Shown here: positions 7,731-8,775 of the stretch, one piece after another
Numbering within the stretch: the stretch's first letter is position 1
How the letters are laid out: each line of letters opens with the position of its first letter
NCBI GenBank assembly: GCA_944327085.1
Contig: CALVGG010000008.1
Location: forward strand, 1-45,460
Direction: 5' to 3'
Length of the DNA: 45,460 nucleotides
Source: an uncultured Elusimicrobiales bacterium
GTDB lineage: Bacteria; Elusimicrobiota; Elusimicrobia; Elusimicrobiales; Elusimicrobiaceae
Program-made: the position numbers and the translations under genes
The notes under the pieces: generated by a model
Told to the model about the DNA's origin: nothing
Databases searched by the model: none
The model's input: only the letters and a program-made list of their open reading frames with translations

Positions 7731-7758
7731 AAACCGCCGTGCATAAGCATGGCGGTTT
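7731..7758. terminator. Bidirectional terminator between kinase gene and rnpB
   Basis: A 12-bp stem with one G-U pair and an ATAA loop, flanked by A-run and T-run on the two sides. It sits between the convergent histidine kinase gene and rnpB, and can end transcripts from both. Confidence 0.88.
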
Positions 7759-7761
7759 TTT

Positions 7762-8097
7762 AACAGCCGATACCCCGGATTCTGTCGGCCCTTGCGGGCC
7801 GGGATAGCCATTACTCTAAGCGGCCTACTTGGTCACGAACGCGGGCAGCGTATGGACCGGCTTGGCCTTGCTCCGTGCGGGGTTTACCGTGCCGTTTGCG
7901 TTGCCGCAAACGCGGTGGGCTCTTACCCCACCATTTCACCCTTACCCTTGCGGGCGGTTTGTTTTCTGTTGCACTTTCCGTCCAACGGGGTGATATGGCC
8001 CCGTCGTCCCGCTCTTTCGGGCGGCGCACTGCCTTGCGGAGTCCGGAAGTTCCTCCCCCTGCGCCTAAAACGGCCGGGAGCGGCTATCTGGGCTGTT
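7762..8097 (-). ncRNA. rnpB: RNase P RNA (bacterial type A)
   Basis: The catalytic RNA of RNase P, which trims the 5' leader of pre-tRNAs. Read on the minus strand it shows the universal marks in order: GGAGGAACTTCCGGACTCC near the 5' end (P4 strand), CAGAAA, GGTAAGGGTGAAA, AGAGCCCACCGC, and GACAGAATCCGG near the 3' end. AACAGCC (5') and GGCTGTT (3') pair to form helix P1 and set the approximate ends. About 336 nt is a normal size. It lies 72 bases downstream of rnhA on the same strand; no clear promoter of its own was seen. Confidence 0.95.
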
Positions 8098-8169
8098 GTA
8101 AATAGTTTCGGCTTTTTTTATCAAAAAGCAAGCGCTTGGCGCTTTAAAACCAGCGCGTAAAGGGCGCGG

Positions 8170-8775
8170 TTAAAACCCGTCAAATAAGTTTAACTGTTGG
8201 GGCCCTTTTTTAGGTTTGGACGTCTTTTTTGCCGTCTTTTTGACTGCTTTGGGTGCAGGTTGCTCTGCGGGCTGGGCCGGTGTTTGCGGTGCGGGGGCAG
8301 CGGGTTTAGCGGATGAAGCAGGTACAGGGGTGCCCGGGGCCGGTTGAGGTTTTGCAGCGGGCGGGCAGCCTACATCGTGTTTGGCGTCCATGGCTTTGTT
8401 GGCCAATGCGTCCGCTTCTTTGTTTTGTTCGCGCGGCACGTGTTGGATGTGTACCGCTTTGAAATTTTCCGTAATTTGGCGGATTTGGCCAATCAAGTCT
8501 TTTAAGTTCTGATTCTTGATTTTATATTCTCCTAAGTATTGCTTTACCAAAAGTAAAGAGTCCGAGCGTATATCCAGCTCAGTAGCGCCCATTTCCAGGC
8601 AGGCCTGGGCCGCGCGTTTAAGGGCGGTAAATTCGGCATGGTTGTTGGTGCAATGTGCCAAAAAATGCCCTTCCTGGGCCAGCAGTTTGCCTTCCGGCGT
8701 TTTGATGACGTAAGCCGACGCCCCCGGCCCGGGGTTGCCGCGGCTTCCGCCGTCTATATTTATCTTTACTTTCAT
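8170..8775 (-). CDS. rnhA: Ribonuclease HI with a C-terminal clamp-binding-like tail
   Basis: A 201-residue protein; residues 1-130 form an RNase H domain that cuts the RNA strand of RNA-DNA hybrids. The catalytic acids are visible: Asp8 in DGGSRGNPGPG, Glu48 in NNHAEF, Asp72 in RSDS and Asp122 in KEADALAN. Residues 135-190 are a Pro/Ala- then Lys-rich linker, probably disordered. The last nine residues are QQLNLFDGF, and QLNLF (194-198) matches the bacterial beta-sliding-clamp consensus QL(S/D)LF. That suggests tethering to the replisome (inference). The gene lies upstream of rnpB. A TAAAAT box lies 6 bases before ATG and there is no Shine-Dalgarno. Confidence 0.88.
   Translation of the reverse strand: MKVKINIDGGSRGNPGPGASAYVIKTPEGKLLAQEGHFLAHCTNNHAEFTALKRAAQACLEMGATELDIRSDSLLLVKQYLGEYKIKNQNLKDLIGQIRQITENFKAVHIQHVPREQNKEADALANKAMDAKHDVGCPPAAKPQPAPGTPVPASSAKPAAPAPQTPAQPAEQPAPKAVKKTAKKTSKPKKGPQQLNLFDGF

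Follow-up and report, generated by a model that had tools for sequence, protein, structure and literature searches.

A candidate beta-clamp-binding tail on the type 1 RNase H of Elusimicrobiales bacteria

Type 2 RNases H can be directed by a sliding clamp: PIP boxes are reported to mediate recruitment through PCNA for Archaeoglobus RNase HII, human RNASEH2B and yeast Rnh202 (PMC4176331). A type 1 enzyme, Escherichia coli RNase HI, also reaches the replisome through a protein contact, but according to the accessible part of its description (PMC11253446) that contact is the C-terminus of SSB and not the clamp. Bacterial clamp motifs in general follow QxxLF, in which positions 1, 4 and 5 are critical (PMC12309361), a recent consensus asks in addition for an aliphatic residue at position 2 (PMC13254535), and the clamp motif of E. 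coli UmuC, crystallised with the clamp, is QLNLF at residues 357–361 (PMC3716654), each as given in the available portion of the source. The accessible text of a 2024 Bacillus subtilis study of RNases at forks discusses recruitment and not clamp contact (PMC11352351), the word RNase is absent from the accessible parts of two papers on clamp partners (PMC13254535, PMC9690074), and searches of open-access full text, judged by title or abstract start, turned up no paper describing a bacterial RNase HI bound to the clamp.

The window (the whole stretch analysed, 45,460 nucleotides of contig CALVGG010000008.1 from an uncultured Elusimicrobiales bacterium) contains an RNase HI gene whose product ends in QQLNLFDGF. 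The features discussed below are:

7755..8100, minus strand: RNase P RNA gene (class A), directly downstream of rnhA; a conserved neighbour, separate from the tail
8170..8775, minus strand: RNase HI gene, stop codon included (ORF translation, Pfam; product 201 aa)
8173..8181, minus strand: DGF, the final three residues after QLNLF (different or missing in many orthologues)
8182..8196, minus strand: QLNLF, residues 194–198, proposed beta-clamp-binding motif (translation, orthologues, UmuC match)
8197..8382, minus strand: variable Pro/Ala/Lys linker, predicted to be disordered, residues 132–193 (orthologue tails, AlphaFold2)
8383..8775, minus strand: RNase H domain, residues 1–131 (Pfam, AlphaFold2 model, alignment)

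Fold and sequence family both place the product among the type 1 RNases H (RVT_3-type RNase HI). Pfam RVT_3 matches residues 6–128 (E 2.6e-23) and Pfam RNase_H matches as well (E 1.7e-10); D8, E48, D72 and D122, the four acidic active-site residues of the family, are invariant in both alignments (A1 and A2), and by family membership the protein should cleave RNA in RNA-DNA hybrids. The AlphaFold2 model has a mean pLDDT of about 98 over residues 1–130; its secondary structure ends at residue 137, with none beyond, and pLDDT lies at 58–77 in blocks from residue 141 onward. In this prediction the motif sits on a flexible, terminal segment and hence should be accessible. The initial annotation had described a complete RNase H domain, a 55-residue Pro/Ala/Lys linker and QQLNLFDGF at the very end. 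Both Pfam matches and the model confidence agree with a complete domain, and translation of the minus-strand ORF gives exactly those last residues; the linker is there and is predicted to be disordered, but it is slightly longer than had been stated (about 62 aa, residues 132–193), since the last residue of the domain is about 131. Of 20 related loci searched, 19 have an RNase P RNA next to rnhA, with both families represented and with a gap that is sometimes only a few bases.

The conservation of the tail was followed in 150 related genomes, 123 of which gave a match. The orthologue set comprises 108 strong places; 19 weak matches (E 5e-7 to 6e-4) were left out, 18 of which span part of the domain only and resemble a different RNase H type, and one of which (G050) aligns to the linker only. 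Setting aside one place whose ORF runs past the contig end (L071) leaves 107 complete orthologues from the Elusimicrobiales, mostly metagenome genomes of gut and groundwater bacteria. Of these 107, 103 bear Q-x-x-[LI]-F no more than 8 residues from the stop; they come from two families and, by a hand tally, include every one of the 17 genera for which an orthologue could be read. The tail after the domain is 17–118 aa long and its sequence is unrecognisable from genus to genus; the motif stands 0–5 residues from the end, and 28 tails end exactly at its F. Thus the inner spacing of the motif is fixed and its surroundings are not, which is the pattern expected of a peptide ligand. It had been suggested at the outset that the tail should persist in orthologues while the linker varies, and that a missing or scrambled tail in close orthologues would speak against the clamp-binding reading; the former is what close and distant orthologues display, and the latter did not occur. 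When the tails were shuffled the motif appeared in a mean of 0.33 and a maximum of 4 of 107 over 2000 rounds, and elsewhere in the orthologue proteins it occurs once in 19,586 residues. The conserved tail is not a product of chance. Invariance of Q, L and F in alignment A1 is partly selection, because its 26 rows were picked from tailed sequences; the unselected figure is 103/107.

The four orthologues that lack the motif are L016, which has PPSLF (Gln to Pro), and L088, L093 and L108, which have none; the last three belong to one genus of the second family, and their genomes (G103, G124 and G128) each have a second RNase H match. Many genomes of that family have a further RNase H that belongs to another type and measures 241 aa in L288.

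The kept residues Q, L and F are the clamp-critical positions 1, 4 and 5; the window's QLNLF fits both QxxLF and the narrower QL[SD]LF-type pentapeptide that the initial annotation had invoked, and it matches the UmuC motif in all five letters. The organism's own DnaN is 31% identical to that of E. coli (113/364) and its peptide pocket is conserved: it keeps seven of the eight clamp residues named for the UmuC complex (R152, G174, L177, P242, V247, V360 and M362), and the eighth, R246, which contacts UmuC Phe-361, is Gln. DnaE is a sure clamp client, and at its aligned internal site all 20 genomes have xxxLF, with QxxLF in 12 of them. The motif in the organism's own DnaE is TASLF, without Gln, so the local pocket rules may differ. 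A QxxLF end is found in none of 49 RNase HII tails from the clade and its near relatives, so the motif is not merely a habit of nucleases in this clade. On the strength of these sequence comparisons, we put at roughly 0.8 the probability that RNase HI docks on the beta clamp by its C-terminal tail.

The chief alternative is that a look-alike peptide binds some other partner (for example, a part of the clamp loader, a polymerase or a chaperone) instead of DnaN. Its main attraction lies in position 2, which is Leu in the window's protein, an aliphatic residue as the recent consensus asks, but Pro in 66 of the 103 motif-bearing relatives (QPxLF 66, QLxLF 27), and Pro is unusual there for textbook clamp motifs. 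However, the residues that are kept are those important for clamps, the peptide is identical to that of UmuC and the DnaN pocket is conserved; moreover, two genomes of this class have DinB proteins with SPSLF and TPSLF, so Pro at position 2 may be tolerated in this clade. DinB was found in 8 of 20 genomes, with ends judged by eye and some in the wrong frame, and none was found in the organism's own genome. Another partner is thus rather unlikely, and docking on DnaN remains the favored reading.

That the tail mimics the SSB tip, or otherwise acts by the SSB route, is very improbable, even though E. coli RNase HI provides a precedent for an SSB contact, the organism's own SSB ends in EDDVPF and DGF or DDF closes several RNase HI tails. 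What is conserved is QxxLF and not an acidic-Pro-Phe tip, 28 tails have nothing after the motif F, the window's own tail ends in LFDGF and no conserved PF end after acidic residues is present among the 107 tails; furthermore, a contact of SSB with the nuclease domain would come in addition to the tail and would not explain it. A C-terminal degradation or quality-control signal, which might be suggested by the short, hydrophobic terminus of a disordered segment, is scarcely credible, since such degrons usually require a fixed free end, and this motif is followed by anything from 0 to 5 residues and keeps its Gln at a fixed spacing.

Several other candidates were considered and set aside. QLNLFDGF has no FF and does not match the PIP box (Qxx[IL]xxFF). 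RNase HII was rejected as a second clamp client on the 49 tails mentioned above; ends in LFP or LLP (L348, L353 and L426) are frequent in that family and may be a weak clamp-like end or nothing. The MutS C-termini inspected have no clear common motif; one ends in QLSLLE (L289), and for some rows (L302 and L310) the ORF read was wrong or longer. A DNA-pattern scan for QxxLF in the organism's own genome, with 257 matches against 115 for the reversed pattern as control, had too much noise to be useful.

Outside the order the tail is sparse. A QxxLF end is present in 3 of 40 places fetched from the rest of the phylum (L255, L263 and L270), a lower bound in that several places (L278, L280 and L286 among them) were poorly read or off the contig; another (L259) has the end QLMLKF, and most of the 40 RNase HI proteins terminate a few residues past the domain. 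Among 80 loci from a species collection the tail is confined to Elusimicrobia records and is absent from those of Planctomycetota, Acidobacteria, Rokubacteria and Bacillota. Thus the tail is not a general feature of RNase HI. Searches of plasmid, phage and virus sequences brought up nothing closer than distant RNase HI proteins, and the tail is in none of the seven ends read (L400–L404, some of them partial or poorly read, L405 and L406). In a tree of 83 domains the order forms one clade (100/99), and tailed rows also lie in two further branches; the tree, which is rough as it has few columns, requires six changes of tail label, at least four of them forced by well-supported branches, so gain or loss of the tail happened repeatedly.

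RNase HI proteins of other groups carry extensions of other kinds. In Phycisphaerae and other Planctomycetota (L203, L206, L211 and L213) the domain is apparently fused to a formyltransferase domain, confirmed by Pfam in L206, the only one of the four scanned. Other planctomycetotal proteins (L189, L191 and L200) have a C-terminal extension with several Cys, which gave no additional Pfam match in L191 and L200. In Acidobacteria (L207, L214 and L216, also L202) the protein ends in a small extension, which in L207 matches the Pfam family AF2212-like, an antitoxin-like family.

If the tail docks on DnaN, then QLNLF at the C-terminus would serve as the bacterial clamp-binding motif of a type 1 RNase H. 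The folded nuclease would be suspended from a flexible tether whose end occupies the hydrophobic pocket on the sliding clamp, DnaN, and it would thus be held on freshly replicated DNA, either moving with the fork or staying behind it, where RNA-DNA hybrids occur; in this way RNase HI is probably carried along with replication. We infer the DnaN binding, the recruitment to forks and the substrate, which might be Okazaki primers, R-loops or single ribonucleotides. Clamps remain on finished Okazaki fragments, so primer or ribonucleotide clean-up is plausible. The genome also encodes RNase HII and a PolA-type 5′ nuclease, along with the SSB whose tip is intact, so primer removal does not rest on RNase HI alone. 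The clamp-binding reading of the initial annotation is favored by the UmuC-identical motif, the DnaN pocket and the DnaE motif of the same class; its companion proposal, Okazaki primer removal, names one of several conceivable jobs and is a guess, and removal of R-loops is just as possible.

The solved folds closest to this protein are those of Halobacterium RNase HI (4e19) and of the Rv2228c RNase H domain (3hst), at 37–39% identity and an rmsd of about 1 Å, and the match spans the nuclease domain only. E. coli UmuC shares the identical motif (PMC3716654, in its accessible part), but UmuC and Pol II (QLGLF) are DNA polymerases and the UmuC motif is internal. The likeness to the PCNA-directed enzymes, as far as the available text describes them, is that an RNase H bears a sliding-clamp peptide for recruitment to replication sites; the difference is that those are type 2 enzymes with a PIP box, whereas the Elusimicrobiales protein is a type 1 enzyme with a QxxLF motif suited to DnaN, so the arrangement would be convergent. 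The accessible part of a report on Halobacterium RNase HI states that it cuts the RNA-DNA junction and could remove primers completely (PMC9719913), and since this enzyme is a near solved relative, clearance of whole primers by a single clamp-delivered enzyme could occur here as well. The fuller proposal, that the Elusimicrobiales convergently evolved a clamp-tethered type 1 RNase H that processes RNA on nascent DNA, as archaea and eukaryotes have done with RNase HII/H2 and PCNA, and that clamp delivery could let one enzyme clear entire Okazaki primers, is tentative and on balance doubtful. Docking of the tail on the clamp, if it holds, would place RNase HI among the proteins for which the bacterial clamp serves as a tool-belt, and tethering of RNase H to a sliding clamp would have arisen separately in bacteria; the tail also offers a direct handle on whether bacteria bring RNA-removing enzymes to forks by the clamp, by SSB or by diffusion.
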